6,912 bases of DNA, from positions 1 to 6,912 of the forward strand of contig JAKAUD010000071.1 in the NCBI GenBank assembly GCA_021827885.1, given 5' to 3'. Under the pieces are notes generated by a model, which worked only from the letters and a program-made list of their open reading frames with translations, searched no databases and was not told the DNA's origin. The translations under genes were made by a program, and so were the position numbers. This document shows, piece by piece, positions 1 through 6,912 of the stretch (position 1 is its first letter; each line of letters starts with the position of its first letter). Source of the stretch: Thermoplasmata archaeon (GTDB lineage Archaea > Thermoplasmatota > Thermoplasmata > Thermoplasmatales > Thermoplasmataceae).

Positions 1-33
1 AGAAGCAAAAAGAGACAAGATGGAACATATCCC

Positions 34-1062
34 ATGGTGGTTTCTCAACAGGAATTGTTGTCTAATTCATCAGTTAAAGCTTCTAAACTTAAAAAGTTAA
101 AGCCTTCGACCGGGATATTGGGTAAGTCCATTACAAATTCTGAAGAAACTATTGGAAGATTTGGTATTTCTAAGGGGAAGAGAGGAATTTATGACAGCAG
201 GAATCCTTTAAATGACCTGACTGGAAGGGAATGGGTCCGGTTCACAAGAAGTTGGGAAATTCATAATCCGCCATCAAGGAAAAGAAGCGAACTACTTCAC
301 CCTGCTAAGTTCCCAGAAACCCTTATTGAAGAATTTATCAGATTTTTTACAAAAGAAAATGAGATAGTGTTGGACCCTATGCTCGGCACTGGATCAACGT
401 TGGTTGCCTGCAAAATGGCCAATCGTAGGGGGGTAGGAATTGAATTATCTAAGAAGTGGGCTGACATTGCACGTAACAGAGCTATTCAAATAGACGAAAG
501 CGAAGTTAATCAAAGGCAGATAGTAATTGAAGGAGATTCTAGGAATCTAGTCGAACTATTGGCAGAAAGGGGTATCAATTCTGTTGATTTTTGCATAACC
601 TCTCCACCCTATTGGAATATGCTAAGAAAATCCAGAGGACACGTTAAATCCGAATCCAAAAAGAGGAAAGAAAATGGGTTAGATACTTATTACGGAGAGG
701 ACCCGAGGGATTACGGAAACATAGACGAATATGAAGGGTATCTTAACGAAATGTATTCATTATTCGCTAGGGTCTACCAAGTACTGAAAGATCAACGGTA
801 TCTAGTTGTTATTGCTCAAAATGTTCTTACCAAAGAGGGTAAGATGGTTCCTGTCGCTTGGGATATGGCGAAACGACTGGGCCAGTTATATACACTTAAG
901 CAAGAGAAAATTTGGCTGCAGAACAACAAAATGCTGGGATCGTGGGGGTATCCCTTTGAATACGTCTCTAATGTGCACCATCATTATTGTCTTATCTTTA
1001 AGAAGGATGAGTCTAAAACCTTAAAAGGGTTAGAGTTAGCCAGAGTCAAAGAGAGCCCATAG
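34..1062 (+). CDS. Site-specific DNA methyltransferase (N4-cytosine or N6-adenine, N6_N4_Mtase-like)
   Basis: This protein should transfer a methyl group from S-adenosylmethionine to the exocyclic amino group of cytosine or adenine at a specific DNA site. Visible motifs in order are: a motif X-like HPAKFPETL (89-97); motif I, LDPMLGTGST (113-122), the AdoMet loop; an acidic motif II, GIELS (E137); GDSRNL (167-172); and catalytic motif IV, TSPPYW (189-194). The order X-I-IV differs from the beta-class order. SPPY is commoner in N4-cytosine enzymes, so N4mC is favoured but not proven. A C-terminal block, YPFEYVSNVHHHYCLIF (306-322), also looks typical of this family. No large separate target-recognition domain is seen; residues about 196-235 are the best candidate. 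The first 50 residues are Ser/Lys-rich and unrecognised. The start is uncertain: the frame is open to base 1, no clear ribosome site precedes ATG 34, and the gene may begin before the window. It converges with the nuclease gene, whose 3' end it overlaps by 17 nt. It is probably the modification subunit of the cassette. Family call strong; base specificity unknown. Confidence 0.93.
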   Translation: MVVSQQELLSNSSVKASKLKKLKPSTGILGKSITNSEETIGRFGISKGKRGIYDSRNPLNDLTGREWVRFTRSWEIHNPPSRKRSELLHPAKFPETLIEEFIRFFTKENEIVLDPMLGTGSTLVACKMANRRGVGIELSKKWADIARNRAIQIDESEVNQRQIVIEGDSRNLVELLAERGINSVDFCITSPPYWNMLRKSRGHVKSESKKRKENGLDTYYGEDPRDYGNIDEYEGYLNEMYSLFARVYQVLKDQRYLVVIAQNVLTKEGKMVPVAWDMAKRLGQLYTLKQEKIWLQNNKMLGSWGYPFEYVSNVHHHYCLIFKKDESKTLKGLELARVKESP

Positions 1063-2404
1063 TATAAAGGTCTCTCGGTAAGACATAAATGGCGGATTCC
1101 GCAAGTGCATATGGTGGATAGTAGTAGCAGGCTGCTCCTAAGGGAGGCCCAAATTTGCGATTTGCAGAGATTAATATGCCAGCCTTGATCTTCTTGCCAG
1201 AGATTAGACCCGCAAATGACGGCCACGGTATCTTCTTACCTTCTTTGATGGCCTTATCACGTCGCTTATCAAGAGAGTTTAGTTTTTCAACAATTTTATC
1301 CGTTGCCATACCAGTAGAATTAACGGCAGGATTCTTAGGGGTGGGAATGAAGTAAGCAGGATATTTAATGAATTTCGCAGAGAATTCAGAAAAAGGGATG
1401 TGACCGATCCAGTATATCTTAAAGTCTTCAGGCACTTTTAAATTAACGAAACTTTCGCTGTTAAGGACCCATTCAAAGTTAGGGTCATTAATATTTTCAA
1501 GTGGATTTGTCGGCTTTGTGACCATATCATCAAAATTACTCTCTGCTGCTATCACAATCTTGTCGGAGGGGTTTAATTCAGATGGGTGGTCTACTCTGAT
1601 ACACCCAAGAGCAGAGTATCTTACTCTAGAACTCCCATCTTCTCCAGGTTTGAGGATAATTTCCACCACGGATTGGCGGTCTCCATTCCATTCACCTATA
1701 GGTATGATTCTAATGGACCCTCTCTCTTGTGAAAGAACTTTTTGACTCCTTTCCCACTTTGCCTTCAAAACAAAGCCTTTTTTAGATTTTTCTCTTGCTT
1801 CAATCAGTTTTCTATCTTGAAAATAAATCTGGGCCTTTCCGTAAGGCGCGGCGCACCAGAAGCCGGAGTCACCAAATGCAGGAGTCCTTCTTCTTAAATC
1901 TTGTTTGGTTTCGGCTATTCCGAATATATAGCTGTCCTTCATTCTTTCCGGGGTTAATTGAGTCATAGGAACCATCACAGGAAAGAATCTTCTCCATTCT
2001 GGACCAGGATAATCATAATTTTGTATGAAGAGTTCAGGAGTAAATTCTTGTCTTTTCCAGTTTGCACTGTATTCGGAATATATGACAGTAGTTTTCACAT
2101 CGTAAATCTTTTCGTTCACCTTGAAGTCAAAGATGTCACTTTCCCGGTAGCCCGTCCAGTCCATATCACATTTCTTCCCTCTTTTTGTAAGTTCTCTTTC
2201 TAATACAGATTGAGCAAGTACTCCTTCGGCGATGTGCACCATTCTGTCATTTGTAGATTTTTGAGCTTTTCCTCCGTAATGCATCCTGTCAAAGGTCCAG
2301 GGTAGACTAATTGTAGCATATTCAATTGCTTCTCTTTGTTCGCGTTCAGTTATTTTTGATTCCCATATTTGTTTAGGGTCTGAAAGCGGAGTGCGATTTC
2401 TCAT
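1046..2404 (-). CDS. Putative PD-(D/E)XK restriction endonuclease, unrecognised family
   Basis: I do not recognise the whole protein, but residues about 52-110 look like a PD-(D/E)XK nuclease core. A helix carries E60 (IAEGVLAQSVLERELTKRG), then comes SDIFDF (D90, D93), then a strand ending YDVKTT (D102, K104). The 12-residue spacing from D90 to D102-x-K104 fits the fold, although the proline of the classical PD is a serine here. Downstream strands DSYIFGIAE (158-165) and FKIYWIGHI (328-336) resemble the core strands that often follow the catalytic lysine in restriction enzymes. The middle and C-terminal parts, including a Tyr-rich tail (CYYYPPY, 426-432), show no known motif, helicase or methylase signature; they could recognise DNA. 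The ATG lies 5 nt after the helicase-nuclease stop, so the two are surely co-transcribed; only a weak purine patch precedes it. The 3' end overlaps the opposing methyltransferase gene. By context this is the likely restriction subunit. Nuclease call moderate; role inferred. Confidence 0.75.
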   Translation of the reverse strand: MRNRTPLSDPKQIWESKITEREQREAIEYATISLPWTFDRMHYGGKAQKSTNDRMVHIAEGVLAQSVLERELTKRGKKCDMDWTGYRESDIFDFKVNEKIYDVKTTVIYSEYSANWKRQEFTPELFIQNYDYPGPEWRRFFPVMVPMTQLTPERMKDSYIFGIAETKQDLRRRTPAFGDSGFWCAAPYGKAQIYFQDRKLIEAREKSKKGFVLKAKWERSQKVLSQERGSIRIIPIGEWNGDRQSVVEIILKPGEDGSSRVRYSALGCIRVDHPSELNPSDKIVIAAESNFDDMVTKPTNPLENINDPNFEWVLNSESFVNLKVPEDFKIYWIGHIPFSEFSAKFIKYPAYFIPTPKNPAVNSTGMATDKIVEKLNSLDKRRDKAIKEGKKIPWPSFAGLISGKKIKAGILISANRKFGPPLGAACYYYPPYALAESAIYVLPRDLYTMGSL

Positions 2405-2409
2405 AAAGC

Positions 2410-5121
2410 CTACACTGTATTAATAGGGGCAGATATAAAGTCATGGCACAATGAACTAATATCGCAGGCACCACACGAAATTTTCCCTGGAGTTGTGTAT
2501 GGGCCATTGAGCGAGAGCTTTTCAAACCGTCTTACTGCTTCCTCAATAAGTTTTGATACAGCCTCAATAGATACATTTACTGGAATCTGGGCAGTTAAAC
2601 CTTCCTGACTAAGATCGTATAATCTACCCTCTGATACATCAAAACCTCCATTTCTCAACCCATATGCATAGACCTTGAGTTGATGTTCATAGCGGTGTTC
2701 TAATTCCTTATGTACTGAGAATTTCCAGTCAACTACTATTATTGATTTCCCATCCTTAATTGTTGCGTCGACGAATCCACTTACGACTATATCACCTAGT
2801 TTGAAACTGAATCTATGCTCTGTTAAATCTACCTTCTTTAAAATTCCAGTCTTTATTAGTTGGAAGAGCTTTAATTTAATAGATTTTTGTATCTTGAGTT
2901 CTTGATTTATTTCTCCAAGAGGAAGATAAACTTCTTCATTTACTATATCGTCAAGCTTATGATCACCTTCACTCGTTATCCTTTGTATAGCCCTATGCGC
3001 TATATTTCCAGCTCCCAGCTCCGAACCTACCGGTACATCTACCCCTACGATTCTCCTGAGGTAAAAATGATATGGGCACTCCAGAAGCAGAATAAAATCT
3101 GAAACACCAAGGTGAAGGTAATATGGTCTAGTAAAGTCCTCTATTTCAGCTAGATTTGAATCACTGGAAACTGACACGTTGCCTGATTGTTTAAGCAGGA
3201 TTTTGATTAGTCTTTTATCTGCAAATCTGCTAGGTCTTTTCCTCTCATTCCCGGTAAAGATGTAAAGTCTATCTCTTGCACGAGTGATTGCCACATACCA
3301 CAATCTTCTTTCGTCCTCAATGGAAGTGCCGTAACGCTGTGCAATATTATCAGGAAACGACGACCTGTGACCCTCCGGCCGTCTCGGAAATCTATCTTCC
3401 CATGCGAACGGTAAAATCACTACGGGCCATTCAAGACCTTTGGCTGCGTGTACCGTAGATATTGTAACAGCATCAGTCCTTCTTGTGGACATCCCAACTT
3501 CAGTCCATCGTTCTATTTGCTTACTCAGTTGCCACCGAAGATTATTGGTGAAGACATCTACTGGGGAACTTCTGGCATTATACTTTGCGGAAAATCTCCT
3601 GCGATATGCCTCCTCTATAGCTCTCATTATCTGCGTTATAGCGGAAAAACCTTCTTGGACAGGAGAATCAGAAGGTTTAATTCTGAAACCAACTGACTCA
3701 ACGAAGTCAAAAAGTTGCTGCCTGAAGTTATATTGATCATTTAACGACCTTGCATTATTCATTACTAGTTTGCTATACCACTCTGCAACGTATCTATTGA
3801 TCCGGTTAATGTCCTTCTCTTCACAGAATACAGAAATTTTTGTCAAATATTCATTGATTTTGTTGTTAAGCTCTACTTCCTCACTCTTGTTTGCCGGAAT
3901 TGGAGGCTCATTCATAATTGAAACTAGGTCTATTATCGGCAACATAAAGTTGTTTACGAGAAGTATGCCAGAATTTCTATTAGGAGAATAATAGGGTATG
4001 TGAGCTTCCGCAAAAGAATCCATTAAGTCCTGACCATGATAAAGCACTGATCTCATCAGAACGGCTATCTCTCCTGGCTTAACGCCGTCGTGAATAAGAT
4101 TTTGTACAGTCTTCACGACTCCTAGTTCGTTTGGGAATGTTGTATTGTCAAATATAACAGAAGCATTGGAATTGGCCCTTGTAGGGTCTACCTCCATGTC
4201 ATTGATTGTAAATCTCATCGAGAAGGCCATATTCTTGGCGGTTAGATTTGCGTAATCTACTATGCCGTTCCGAGAGCGATGGTTCATTGTAATCTCATAA
4301 ATTTGAGCGTCCGGGAAGTCTTCCTTAAACGATAATATCCTTTCAACTTCACCTCCTCTCCACTGATAAATTGCCTGGCGAGGGTCTCCGACTGCTAGGA
4401 TCCTAGATTGGATATTCCCCTCCATCATTGCCTTGAGTAGCTCTACTTGAGCTGGATTGACATCCTGATATTCATCTACATAAACATCCATTCGATGACA
4501 TGAGAATTTTGAGTTTTTAAGGCGAAGAGTTGCTTTTCTTACTAGGAGACCAAAATCAATAAGCCTCTGTTCTTCCATGAACTTAAGATAATTCTGGATT
4601 GCCAGACATACATTTGATGGCATGATTTTATTATCAACTTCGAGAGACTCGTTGTAAAATATCTCGAGATCAGAAATGAATCTATCTATCTTTTCAAATT
4701 TATTACGACCCTCATATAACTTTTCCAGTTGCAATTCCTGATAAACTCTCTGAACAAGTTGAATCTGTTCTAGTTCATCTACAACTTTAGTGTTAGCTAG
4801 CTGCCCGTCTTCTTTCAGAAAATTGTCACACCAACCATGAATAGTCCCGATATAGATTTTATCCAAAAGATGCTCCTTTTTTAGAGTTTTTAGCTCCTTC
4901 GAGATCCTAACAACCAGTTCATCAGCCGCATTGTTAGTGAATGTGAACAAAATGACTTTTTCTCGGTCAGGAGTTACAATTCCCTCGTTAATCTGCTTTA
5001 TAAAGGTCTCAATTAGAAGCCTGGTCTTCCCAGAGCCAGCGGCTGCTACTACAAGTTGAGCTCTTTTTTTGGACTTAACAACTCTATTTACCGTGTTTTC
5101 AAAATTATCAAAGCTATCCAT
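2410..5121 (-). CDS. UvrD/AddA-like SF1 helicase fused to a RecB/Cas4-type nuclease with Fe-S cysteines
   Basis: This is an ATP-driven 3'-5' type SF1A DNA translocase with a nuclease tail. Helicase motifs are complete: Walker A AAAGSGKT (26-33), Ia FTFTNNAADEL (59-69), Ib GTIHGW (92-97), II DEYQD (216-220), III GDPRQAIYQWRGG (245-257), IV NHRSR (280-284), V TVHAAKGLEW (556-565) and VI WYVAITRARDRLY (608-620). The C-terminal domain (about 670-895) is of the PDDEXK_1/RecB type: H709, GFVD (D785), VVDWK (D798, K800), then Q814 with YAY (818-820). Four cysteines surround it, C682 in LECPYHFYLRR and C883/C886/C892 in CGACDISSLC, the one-plus-three arrangement of the AddB and Cas4 iron-sulfur clusters. 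The 903-residue length is shorter than typical bacterial AddA (about 1,200). All catalytic residues appear intact. It is the first gene of a two-gene minus-strand operon. Archaea usually resect ends with HerA-NurA and Mre11-Rad50, so an AddA-like enzyme beside a methyltransferase suggests an acquired defence role. ATG 5119-5121 is the first plausible start; no strong Shine-Dalgarno precedes it. Confidence 0.95.
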   Translation of the reverse strand: MDSFDNFENTVNRVVKSKKRAQLVVAAAGSGKTRLLIETFIKQINEGIVTPDREKVILFTFTNNAADELVVRISKELKTLKKEHLLDKIYIGTIHGWCDNFLKEDGQLANTKVVDELEQIQLVQRVYQELQLEKLYEGRNKFEKIDRFISDLEIFYNESLEVDNKIMPSNVCLAIQNYLKFMEEQRLIDFGLLVRKATLRLKNSKFSCHRMDVYVDEYQDVNPAQVELLKAMMEGNIQSRILAVGDPRQAIYQWRGGEVERILSFKEDFPDAQIYEITMNHRSRNGIVDYANLTAKNMAFSMRFTINDMEVDPTRANSNASVIFDNTTFPNELGVVKTVQNLIHDGVKPGEIAVLMRSVLYHGQDLMDSFAEAHIPYYSPNRNSGILLVNNFMLPIIDLVSIMNEPPIPANKSEEVELNNKINEYLTKISVFCEEKDINRINRYVAEWYSKLVMNNARSLNDQYNFRQQLFDFVESVGFRIKPSDSPVQEGFSAITQIMRAIEEAYRRRFSAKYNARSSPVDVFTNNLRWQLSKQIERWTEVGMSTRRTDAVTISTVHAAKGLEWPVVILPFAWEDRFPRRPEGHRSSFPDNIAQRYGTSIEDERRLWYVAITRARDRLYIFTGNERKRPSRFADKRLIKILLKQSGNVSVSSDSNLAEIEDFTRPYYLHLGVSDFILLLECPYHFYLRRIVGVDVPVGSELGAGNIAHRAIQRITSEGDHKLDDIVNEEVYLPLGEINQELKIQKSIKLKLFQLIKTGILKKVDLTEHRFSFKLGDIVVSGFVDATIKDGKSIIVVDWKFSVHKELEHRYEHQLKVYAYGLRNGGFDVSEGRLYDLSQEGLTAQIPVNVSIEAVSKLIEEAVRRFEKLSLNGPYTTPGKISCGACDISSLCHDFISAPINTV

Positions 5122-5153
5122 TCATTTATCTAAGTTTTGGTATGGTGAGAAGT

Positions 5154-5162
5154 GTATTAAAC
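5154..5162 (-). promoter_or_regulatory. Candidate TATA-like box for the helicase-nuclease operon
   Basis: On the minus strand this reads GTTTAATAC. Its centre is about 37 nt upstream of the helicase-nuclease ATG. With the usual archaeal spacing of about 26-27 nt from box to transcription start, the transcript would begin around 5131 with a leader of about 10 nt. No convincing BRE purine element is seen. The call rests on composition and spacing only. Confidence 0.35.
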
Positions 5163-5227
5163 TATTCCTACGTCTTCATTAGCCACTTTAGACCAGTTCA
5201 TTTGTTCTGGGATTTAACATGGACAAT

Positions 5228-5241
5228 TGACCAAGTGGTCA
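5228..5241. repeat. 14-bp inverted repeat TGACCA-AG-TGGTCA in the divergent intergenic region
   Basis: Two perfect 6-bp arms flank a 2-bp centre, between the helicase operon (start 5121, minus) and the zinc-ribbon gene (start 5341, plus). A further GACCA half-site lies at 5191-5195. The size and symmetry fit a dimeric regulator's operator, but the repeat is 107 nt from one start and 100 nt from the other, far for a simple repressor site overlapping either promoter. No DNA-binding regulator is encoded in the window apart from the possible zinc ribbon. Confidence 0.4.
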
Positions 5242-5340
5242 GTCTATCAGAATTTACGTAACATCATATGACACCTACGATCAACAATGCAAGGATTTTA
5301 GCGAGGAAAGACAGAAATAGATATTAGTGCATCTAGGTTT

Positions 5341-5535
5341 ATGGCTTACGATGGCATAATCAAATGCCCCTACTGTAATCACGAGGGTTCAGATTTCAAG
5401 TTCCTGAAGGAATGGGTAAGCGGAACTGCAATTGTCGATAGGTTTGAGTGTTTATCGTGTAGTCGAGTCTTTAGGTTATATTTTGGAGAAAAGCGTGATG
5501 GAAAAGAGTTCAAGTATACTATAAAGGCGAAATGA
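5341..5535 (+). CDS. Small zinc-ribbon protein
   Basis: A 64-residue protein with a clear zinc-ribbon: C9-P-Y-C12 and C37-L-S-C40, a C-x2-C / C-x24-C-x2-C arrangement that should bind one zinc ion. It has no membrane segment or signal peptide and ends in a basic stretch (GKEFKYTIKAK), so it is cytoplasmic and could contact nucleic acid. Small zinc ribbons opening with an M-A-Y-D-G / K-C-P-Y-C pattern are familiar from archaeal genomes, but I cannot assign a function. It is divergent from the helicase operon, and 219 bp of spacer separate the two starts. Upstream, AT-rich sequence around 5313-5326 is a weak TATA candidate; AGGT sits too close to the ATG (2 nt) to be a normal ribosome site, so a short or absent leader is likely. 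It could be a regulator of the cassette or an unrelated housekeeping gene; nothing decides this. Confidence 0.8.
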   Translation: MAYDGIIKCPYCNHEGSDFKFLKEWVSGTAIVDRFECLSCSRVFRLYFGEKRDGKEFKYTIKAK

Positions 5536-6144
5536 TATGATCTATGGAGCCTCTAACCTTAGGCGAATTATAAGGGCGTAAAGGAAAAAGAAGTTGCAGA
5601 CACTTAATTCCTATAGTGGTTAAGAGAACAGATGGATGAGGATGCTAGAGCAAACTTATAGGCAATCCCGTTTTTACTGTAATATACTGGTTCTCTGAAT
5701 TAGTTCTTAACCTTGCATTCGAACCCGTGATAACTTCAGAAGCAAATAAGGTTCCAATTCCTTGGTTTGGGCCATTAATAATAGTTGTTATCGTAGCCTG
5801 TGAAATTAGAGGGCATGTTTCGATATTGAAATCGGAAAGACATATAATTGATTCGAAACCGCACCCCTTGGCCTTGGGGGACAAACAAGGTTGCGACAAC
5901 CAAATAGCTGAAAACCAATAAACTTTCCTCAGTTACTACAAAGTAGGCAGGTCGTTTTTTCCATCACTAAATCTCGACATTCAAGATCTTCCGGGAGCCT
6001 CGCGTTCGACTGAACCTATCCTATTTTAGTCCTCAACTGCAGCGGCTAATTGAAAGATAAGGAATACCGATAATGAAAATATCATTTCAGGTACTGTCTA
6101 AATAAAGAAACGGCTCTAAACCCGAAGAATAAAAATAAAGATGA
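5536..6144. other. Intergenic stretch without a supported gene
   Basis: Two overlapping open frames lie here on opposite strands: minus 5645-5899 (84 residues) and plus 5649-5921 (a GTG start at 5727 gives 64 residues). The plus frame contains one hydrophobic stretch and, near its end, GDKQGCDN, loosely like the ADKGYDS signature of IS5-type transposases with one residue inserted; this is too weak to call a remnant. The minus frame is Thr/Ser/Asn-rich and unrecognised. Neither has a convincing promoter or ribosome site. A run of six T at 5955-5960 could end plus-strand transcription. A C4/G4 hairpin with an 8-nt loop lies at 5864-5879. I see no tRNA, rRNA, C/D-box RNA or CRISPR repeat. The region may hold decayed sequence or an unrecognised small gene. 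Confidence 0.5.
6124..6140 (-). terminator. U-rich archaeal terminator after the 115-residue membrane protein gene
   Basis: On the minus strand, starting 5 nt after the stop codon, the sequence reads CTTTATTTTTATTCTTC. There is no preceding hairpin. Archaeal transcription commonly ends at such U-rich tracts without a stem, and the position directly downstream of the gene fits. Confidence 0.5.
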
Positions 6145-6492
6145 CTAAGTAGGCTTATTCCTCCTTCTGGTTCCCTCCAGGACCGCACCGATGATAATCC
6201 CGAAAAACAAGCCTGCAAAAACACCAAAAATAAGACCGCGCGCCAAGGCAGCTGTCAGTGCATAAGAAAATGAAATGGCTGATTGGTTTACTTCAGAATA
6301 TAAAGTTTTAAAGTCAGTAAGGAGAAGGGTGTAGTTTTCTTTAGAGTAGTTTCCCGAAAAGTTGGGGGTTATGGTAATGCCAGGTAGGAAGTCATTTGAG
6401 GTAGCTCCTGTGTGTGGGGCTATGAACAAAAAAAAGACTGAGATTGTGAGCAGAAAGAGAACGACCGCTATGACTTTTGTTACATTCCGCAT
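6145..6492 (-). CDS. Small two-span membrane protein with glycine-zipper helix
   Basis: A 115-residue protein of unknown function. Residues about 7-26 form a hydrophobic helix (a signal anchor or uncleaved signal), about 27-75 a polar loop, and about 82-105 a second hydrophobic helix, followed by a basic tail (RRRNKPT). Basic residues at both ends predict both termini inside and the loop outside. The loop carries four N-glycosylation sequons (N44-F-S, N48-Y-S, N53-Y-T, N69-Q-S), in keeping with an archaeal surface protein. The second helix has glycines at 86, 90, 94, 98 and 102, a regular GxxxG series that favours close helix packing or oligomerisation. The ATG at 6490-6492 has no Shine-Dalgarno but a TATA-like element 29 nt upstream, as expected of a leaderless transcript, and a U-rich stretch follows the stop. 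It appears to be monocistronic. The coding call is good; I know of no family match. Confidence 0.75.
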   Translation of the reverse strand: MRNVTKVIAVVLFLLTISVFFLFIAPHTGATSNDFLPGITITPNFSGNYSKENYTLLLTDFKTLYSEVNQSAISFSYALTAALARGLIFGVFAGLFFGIIIGAVLEGTRRRNKPT

Positions 6493-6516
6493 TTACTCAG
6501 AACTGATTTTCAATTT

Positions 6517-6525
6517 GATTATTAA
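6517..6525 (-). promoter_or_regulatory. TATA-like box for the 115-residue membrane protein gene
   Basis: The minus strand reads TTAATAATC, centred 29 nt upstream of the ATG at 6492. At the usual archaeal box-to-start distance, transcription would begin within a few bases of the ATG, so the mRNA would be leaderless or nearly so. This agrees with the absence of a Shine-Dalgarno sequence. Confidence 0.5.
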
Positions 6526-6614
6526 GGTTCATGAAGAAATCTTCTACCCGAGGACTTGGAGCCTCTATTATCTGTGATATATAGTAGTATATGACCTCTC
6601 AAAACAATTCTCTC

Positions 6615-6652
6615 CTGTCCATATAAGATTTCCTTTTTGGACAGTGAAATCT
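6615..6652. repeat. Two interlocked inverted repeats downstream of the partial membrane gene
   Basis: Arms CTGTCC (6615-6620) and GGACAG (6639-6644) pair, and AGATTTC (6626-6632) and GAAATCT (6646-6652) pair. The arms alternate, so the two stems either exclude each other or form a pseudoknot-like fold. In a minus-strand transcript this would sit in the 3' region of the membrane gene ending at 6702, followed by a short TTTT. It could be a terminator or 3'-UTR element, or a protein-binding site at DNA level. Confidence 0.4.
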
Positions 6653-6701
6653 GAGAGTGGGATAAAAGGAAACAAGTCCATCCCATGGGATATTAGGGTA
6701 G

Positions 6702-6912
6702 TCAGTATGTATTTGCGATATACCAGGCCACAGCAGAGAGTATGACTGGACATGCTATCCACTCTGGATTCCTCGATATCCTTCTACCGAATCCCCGGAG
6801 TATCCAGTAGAAGTAGGCAGTGGAGGTGAGTATTGCCATGGAGGGTGTGTATTTCAAATTCATGTAGAGGAAGGGGATGATGGTTGGGTATAGGAGATAT
6901 GAAATAACGGTA
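6702..6912 (-). CDS. Polytopic membrane protein, C-terminal part (5' end outside window)
   Basis: A minus-strand frame is open from the right edge (first whole codon ends at 6911) to a TGA at 6702-6704, giving 69 residues without a start. It is strongly hydrophobic, with three likely membrane segments: residues about 1-19, about 24-40 and about 51-68, with a basic loop, GFGRRISRNPE (40-50), between the last two. The pattern, aromatic-rich helices and one short charged loop, is that of a real multi-span membrane protein rather than a chance frame. An internal ATG at 6861-6863 could be a start, but the upstream codons already encode a membrane segment, so the gene most likely continues beyond the window. 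I cannot assign a family. Another minus-strand frame at 6568-6762 overlaps this gene in a different phase and looks spurious. Confidence 0.65.
   Translation of the reverse strand, partial: TVISYLLYPTIIPFLYMNLKYTPSMAILTSTAYFYWILRGFGRRISRNPEWIACPVILSAVAWYIANTY

Follow-up and report, generated by a model that had tools for sequence, protein, structure and literature searches.

The stretch of DNA analysed here (the window) is 6,912 nucleotides (nt) of a Thermoplasmata archaeon, contig JAKAUD010000071.1, positions 1 to 6,912 of the forward strand, and three genes occupy its bases 1-5121. We name them M, a DNA methyltransferase (1..1062, + strand), R, a protein of 452 amino acids (aa) and putative PD-(D/E)XK endonuclease of an undescribed family (1046..2404, - strand), and H, a 903-aa fusion of a UvrD-type helicase with a Cas4/AddB-like nuclease (2410..5121, - strand). 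H and R form a two-gene unit with a gap of 5 bases, which faces M, and the 3' ends of M and R overlap by 17 bases. A first-pass annotation had proposed a three-gene defence cassette at 34..5121, and the three genes are indeed present, but its left bound is probably wrong. The first ATG of M, at base 34, would give a protein of 342 aa ending at 1062. However, the reading frame continues without a stop as far as base 1, and the 85% identical relative P0200 aligns upstream of ATG34; the true start thus probably lies just beyond the window edge, and ATG34 is probably not the real start.

M is a DNA methylase of family PF01555 (Pfam, E 6.6e-30), with motifs in the order HPAKFPE, DPMLGTGST and TSPPYW (X-I-IV), and thus carries the S-adenosylmethionine (SAM) and catalytic motifs of the methyltransferase of a type II restriction-modification (R-M) system. 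Among the 25 best of 67 PADLOC families, its best matches are type II methyltransferases. The catalytic TSPPYW comprises residues 189-194 counted from ATG34 (598..615, + strand), and its S-P-P-Y is kept in 120/120 of the M relatives listed (the best 120 of 5598). TSPPYW is the motif usual in N4-cytosine methyltransferases, and the base modified by M is probably N4-cytosine; this assignment stays qualified because the PDB relatives of M cover N4-cytosine as well as adenine enzymes. Two relatives of M, P0285 and P0303, are fused to ParB-like domains (PF02195), as is P0315 by its listed domains, and further relatives are named as Asgard archaea.

In H, the UvrD helicase N-terminal domain covers residues 12-270 (4312..5088, - strand; PF00580, E 5.6e-45), with a second helicase match to PF13361 (E 9.5e-25), and the nuclease domain PDDEXK_1 covers residues 673-893 (2443..3105, - strand; PF12705, E 2e-15); a match to Cas4 (PF01930, E 3.4e-4) is under its cut-off. 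A UvrD-like helicase and a PF12705 Cas4-like nuclease are thus found in a single chain, as in a UvrD-Cas4 fusion. Conservation was counted in close relatives (P0080-P0148; seven mostly truncated proteins, P0149-P0155, were left out) and in distant ones. The nuclease residues H709, E768, D785, D798-x-K800, Q814 and Y818 and the cysteines C682, C883, C886 and C892 are present in 69/69 close and 44/44 distant relatives, as are D216, E217, Q219 and later helicase residues, and Walker A K32-T33 is kept in 65/69 close and 43/44 distant relatives, the remainder being gapped there. Judged by its sequence, H therefore keeps intact helicase and nuclease residues. The four-cysteine pattern is that of Cas4 and AddB, and such cysteines bind iron-sulphur (Fe-S) centres. 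H scores far under the NCBIfam cut-offs for AddA (98 bits against 708) and RecB (118 against 696). Of the earlier description of H as an 'AddA-like' helicase-nuclease, the fusion of helicase and nuclease holds, but a UvrD helicase with a Cas4/AddB-like four-cysteine nuclease is the better label.

R has no Pfam family above cut-off, no match in PADLOC 2.0.0, NCBIfam or PHROGs, and no credible relative in the PDB by sequence and profile searches. Its own relatives comprise 78 other sequences at E <= 2e-64, 76 of which cover at least 87% of R, and Q65, D90, D93, D102 and K104 are invariant in 81/81 aligned R sequences. In a predicted full-length model (pLDDT 92.6), a long helix (residues 48-74) bearing the invariant Q65 is followed by strands 94-96 and 99-109, and the putative active site, D90, D93 and D102-x-K104 within residues 90-104 (2093..2137, - strand), lies at this strand pair. 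A conserved D...(D/E)xK on a strand pair after a helix is the arrangement of PD-(D/E)XK enzymes, and we infer that R is such an endonuclease, of a new family; its large remaining part may recognise DNA. Fold searches with the full model returned nothing at E <= 0.001. Some viral proteins reached Foldseek probabilities of 0.9-1.0 over 100-170 columns, but with E 2.7e-3 or worse; they are mostly nameless, and the VIA rows align mostly with the beta-rich middle of R. A separate model of residues 1-210, built from four sequences, reached a pLDDT of only 41. Searches for R confirmed none in viral contigs, found none in phages and found one on plasmids.

The surroundings of R could be read at six loci: the window, genome contigs of a bathyarchaeon (L001), a Halobacterium (L002) and a nitrososphaerote (L003), a plasmid of Haloferax lucentense (L004, NZ_CP104744.1:117686-122701), and a divergent copy in a further archaeal genome (L010). 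M, H and R are adjacent in all six, so that the situation which would have spoken against a cassette, H and R mostly apart or lacking a methyltransferase nearby, was not seen at these loci. Two gene orders occur: the H-R pair faces M in the window, L001, L003 and L010, and M, H and R follow one another in one direction in the haloarchaeal L002 and L004. The H-R spacing is 5 bases in the window and 3 in L001, the two genes overlap in L010, and 26 to 103 bases separate them in L002, L003 and L004. In L010 (5955-11375), R is 28% identical to the window R, M has 524 aa, including a long extension at its N terminus, and H is a long branch that groups with distant, mainly bacterial helicases. From this copy one may suspect that the system also exists, so far unnoticed, in bacteria, where its R would have diverged strongly. 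In Halobacterium sp. CBA1126, R is interrupted (L002:9992-11225), and M and H are intact reading frames there.

Beyond these loci, matching sizes of the longest contig were used as a proxy for co-residence, with P0093, for which no length is given, omitted and the H and M lists holding the best 120 each. By this proxy, close H were matched to R in 31/75 cases, to M in 27/75 and to either in 43/75, and distant H to R or M in 0/44; 15 contig sizes are common to all three lists. Conversely, 32/75 close H and 41/79 R have no match at all by this measure, and although 23/32 R on contigs of at least 7000 bases match H or M, nine do not, including P0015 and P0024 on very long contigs. The unmatched R could be true matches hidden by clustering, or R without partners. 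The proxy does miss true cases, as the L002 and L003 contigs carry all three genes and yet are unmatched.

Moreover, the three proteins diverge together. Pairwise distances correlate at 0.918 for R-H (n = 36), 0.910 for R-M (n = 25) and 0.938 for H-M (n = 20), and each value was reached in 0/5000 permutations; these sets exclude one contig that has two R rows as well as the database copy of the window, count the L001 contig once and, for H-M, contain only contigs with R. The congruence that a cassette predicts is thus present. Shared host descent contributes to these correlations, and therefore they are read as joint inheritance and not as physical contact.

R is rare in sampled genomes: it was found in 2/398 and 1/392 genomes of two phyla and in 1/250, 2/256 and 1/292 genomes of three classes, in samples that overlap and were centred on genomes already known to carry it; the hits consist of these known carriers plus G367. 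H relatives at E <= 1e-60 are infrequent too. In the class of the Halobacterium carrier G002 the sole hit among 145 genomes is that carrier, with 6 of up to 17 candidates scored in many of these genomes, and in the phylum of G001 there are hits in 6/250 genomes, namely the cassette carrier, G187 with a type III operon, G154 with a lone gene, and three that match through nothing but the helicase part. Near the cassette lie phage-type integrases (L001, L002), a terminase (L001), TraG-like and TFIIB-like proteins (L003), and, on the L004 plasmid, a recombinase and transposases. The cassette is therefore rare in the sampled genomes, mobile-looking and patchy across archaea. Such surroundings also accord with a module that serves plasmids and integrated elements, being selfish or devoted to their maintenance, and that would mainly kill segregants or manage the DNA ends of the element, with defence as a side effect: plasmid, conjugation-like, integrase or terminase genes lie near all four named loci, and haloarchaeal R-M genes have been suggested as selfish elements (PMC6471742). 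This reading is, however, compatible with restriction, and patchy mobile carriage is equally usual for defence genes; we consider it unlikely. Close to the cassette in L003 (15727-19004) there is also another DNA methylase, together with a protein of 798 aa that has two ATPase domains of the GHKL type, as may be the case in defence islands.

The position of H among its relatives was examined in a tree of 53 sequences, made by a quick method, from close H of at least 850 aa (one in two of the 39 linked ones and one in four of the 28 unlinked ones), 16 of 44 distant H and 10 from loci; published UvrD-Cas4 fusions and other UvrD proteins lie outside this sample, and L010 and L018 are flagged as long branches. 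Close database rows are labelled 'cassette' in it by similarity, linkage being read only at the loci. Cassette H form one clade (SH-aLRT 100). Beside it stand the distant H, of which the named ones are bacterial, together with the L010 H, and outside both groups fall the H of L017, L018, L020 and L021; the H of G187 and G154 are outside the cassette clade, and the three helicase-part-only matches were not placed. Nearer non-cassette relatives (P0156-P0199) are bacterial where named, most being nameless; for one of them, P0161, no near relative was found on plasmids or phages, and its 16 viral-contig matches are all distant.

The first-pass annotation had offered an alternative, an ordinary type II pair with a recombination helicase beside it by chance. 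With M and R as the pair and H as a helicase-nuclease of recombination or repair, such a chance neighbourhood would agree with the match of M to type II models and with the commonness of UvrD-type helicases, but cassette H fall on one side of a fully supported branch, and the rarity of H relatives and their co-divergence with M and R make H unlike a repair gene. Linkage, rarity and congruence thus all tell against this alternative, which we regard as very improbable. Because of adjacency in six loci, correlated divergence, rarity and mobile-looking surroundings, we hold M-H-R to be one unit rather than a type II pair to which a repair helicase is adjacent.

More distant H occur with other restriction genes. 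In the L020 operon, H is accompanied by the two type III genes, one for the methyltransferase (PADLOC MTase_III, E 9e-166) and one for Res (REase_III, E 4.4e-155), and in L017 and L018 a DNA methyltransferase and a DEAD/DEAH protein adjoin H by annotation, the methylase domain being confirmed. From the L020 operon and its look-alike in L017 it follows that this helicase-nuclease type recurs with R-M genes. In L018 (4822-13414), on a plasmid of Tunicatimonas pelagia, an annotated DprA, the distant UvrD helicase-nuclease, the methyltransferase and the DEAD/DEAH protein, which has a TnsA-like end, are consecutive. On a plasmid of Natribaculum luteum (L039, 191-6840), an M relative (29%) has a UvrD helicase of 1189 aa and two hypothetical proteins close by, possibly another archaeal methyltransferase-plus-helicase arrangement. 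A 452-aa protein beside that methyltransferase was tried as a copy of R and rejected, since its sequence is unrelated to R, as are both hypothetical proteins.

The first-pass annotation also did not recognise the combination as a known system, which holds in part. The best PADLOC matches of the three proteins point to no single system. The helicase part of H (residues 10-630) has its best match to the GajB model of Gabija (GajA-GajB; E 2.7e-53, among the 25 best of 57 families), but there is no GajA-like gene in the 6.9 kb window, H has an additional C-terminal four-cysteine nuclease, and a methyltransferase is present. With AddAB and RecBCD the cassette shares a fusion of UvrD helicase and RecB-like nuclease, from which end-dependent unwinding and degradation would be expected, but besides the low scores of H for AddA and RecB, R and M match no AddB or RecC model in NCBIfam. 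As in type III R-M, a methyltransferase, an ATP-driven helicase and a PD-(D/E)XK nuclease come together, possibly with one-strand marking; the motor, however, is an SF1 UvrD and not an SF2 ResIII, and the cassette is without a Res-like gene (PF04851, ResIII, comes up on H alone, over its ATP-site region and at no better than E 0.034; the PADLOC comparison for H covers the 25 best of 57 families). By the criteria examined, the cassette is thus neither Gabija nor AddAB/RecBCD nor type III. Type II R-M likewise has a separate modification enzyme and, as is likely here, a separate nuclease, but the cassette adds a helicase-nuclease gene in all six loci, and R matches no PADLOC restriction enzyme model.

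The general idea has, on the other hand, been known since 2017. According to Hudaiberdiev et al. 2017 (PMC5704561), UvrD-Cas4 fusions adjoin type III Mod/Res most often, otherwise Dcm/Vsr, and are predicted to be ancillary parts of several defence systems; the legend of its Fig. 6 names a PD-DExK nuclease. H resembles these fusions as a UvrD-like SF1 helicase with a PF12705 Cas4-like nuclease beside methylation and restriction genes. In the six loci, however, its partners are a TSPPYW-type M (X-I-IV) and R rather than the Mod/Res or Dcm/Vsr named in that text, so that the cassette adds one more context, with a different set of partners. As far as our searches of open-licence literature reach, the R family and the M-H-R combination are new, and Fig. 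6 and the supplements of PMC5704561 could show such single loci.

We slightly favour a model in which cutting is followed by degradation. M would methylate short host sites, probably at N4-cytosine, as a mark of self; R would cut the same sites where they are unmodified; and H would enter the broken ends, unwind them at the expense of ATP in the 3'-5' direction expected for UvrD-like enzymes, and degrade the invader, as a local counterpart of the action of RecBCD on cut phage DNA in many bacteria. The model builds on the genes and their domains, intact catalytic residues, linkage in two orders, correlated divergence and a patchy, mobile-looking spread; from these we infer the activity of R, a target shared by M and R, the action of H on R cuts and defence as the purpose.

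The chief rival to this cut-then-degrade model is a single ATP-driven restriction complex in which H and R, and perhaps also M, work together as type I or type III enzymes do; R or M would give the site and H would translocate. Cutting would then need two sites or a collision, and H would be part of recognition and not a later degrader. H and R are neighbours in 6/6 loci and close in three of them (window, L001, L010), and the more distant H of L020 is encoded with type III Mod/Res, both of which speak for a complex. On the other hand, H and R stand 26 to 103 bases apart in the remaining three loci, and M is either convergent or upstream, so that no fixed arrangement favours a single complex. 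Moreover, at the type III locus H is additional to Res, and therefore an ancillary role fits better; no such complex is known. We regard this rival as possible but tentative. With a mark on one strand only, a two-site rule like that of type III systems would protect freshly replicated unmarked duplex.

On this point, the Haloferax carrier is informative. Haloferax lucentense SVX82 was sequenced by Reva et al. 2024 (PMC11001535), who describe one methyltransferase of plasmid pSVX82-3, SVXHx_5097, as solitary and report its expression. Among the 105 features listed for pSVX82-3, the sole one named DNA methyltransferase is SVXHx_RS19050, which is the M of L004. Although the table of genes has gaps and the two sets of locus tags are unmatched, SVXHx_5097 is very likely SVXHx_RS19050, M of the cassette. 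Since this M is directly followed by H and then R, SVXHx_5097, if it is the same gene, is not solitary. PMC11001535 gives two cytosine motifs as SVX82's own: cTAG, given to SVXHx_0753, and the one-strand motif CcTTG, 75-79% methylated and there given to no single enzyme, for which, in our reading, SVXHx_2221 and the L004 M are the candidates. If M is the CcTTG enzyme, a one-strand mark and 21-25% unmethylated sites (PMC11001535) would be tolerated by a two-site rule, which would speak for the complex; the assignment of CcTTG to M, however, is not certain. In the same source, SVX82 lysate cleaves lambda DNA to a smear and much is left intact, which several enzymes could explain.

These features can be combined in a distinct R-M class, which we think rather unlikely in this specific form. 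M would mark a short asymmetric site (CcTTG in SVX82) on one strand, R would represent a new endonuclease family, and H would be a built-in translocating degradase whose movement licenses cutting by R, e.g. by confining it to DNA flanked by two unmarked sites, and host DNA that is half-marked or partly unmarked would thereby survive.

Whichever way the three proteins cooperate, R is a restriction-enzyme candidate family new to Pfam, PADLOC 2.0.0, NCBIfam and PHROGs. Here the helicase-nuclease is tied closely to one R-M module, which bears on what finishes restriction-cut DNA in archaea; archaea are not known to possess RecBCD. The system is testable, as a cultured Haloferax strain carries the whole cassette and has a published methylome with a cytosine motif of its own that lacks a certain enzyme. 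One defence survey (PMC12988326) used models of this kind or required 65% identity to REBASE; since R is absent from the model libraries, surveys of this kind would probably miss it.

The rest of the window holds two smaller open reading frames (ORFs). One, of 115 aa (6145-6492, - strand), matches no family above cut-off and has hydrophobic stretches, and the other, of 64 aa (5341-5535, + strand), is zinc-ribbon-like, with a weak NrdR-type match (E 0.003) that is under cut-off.

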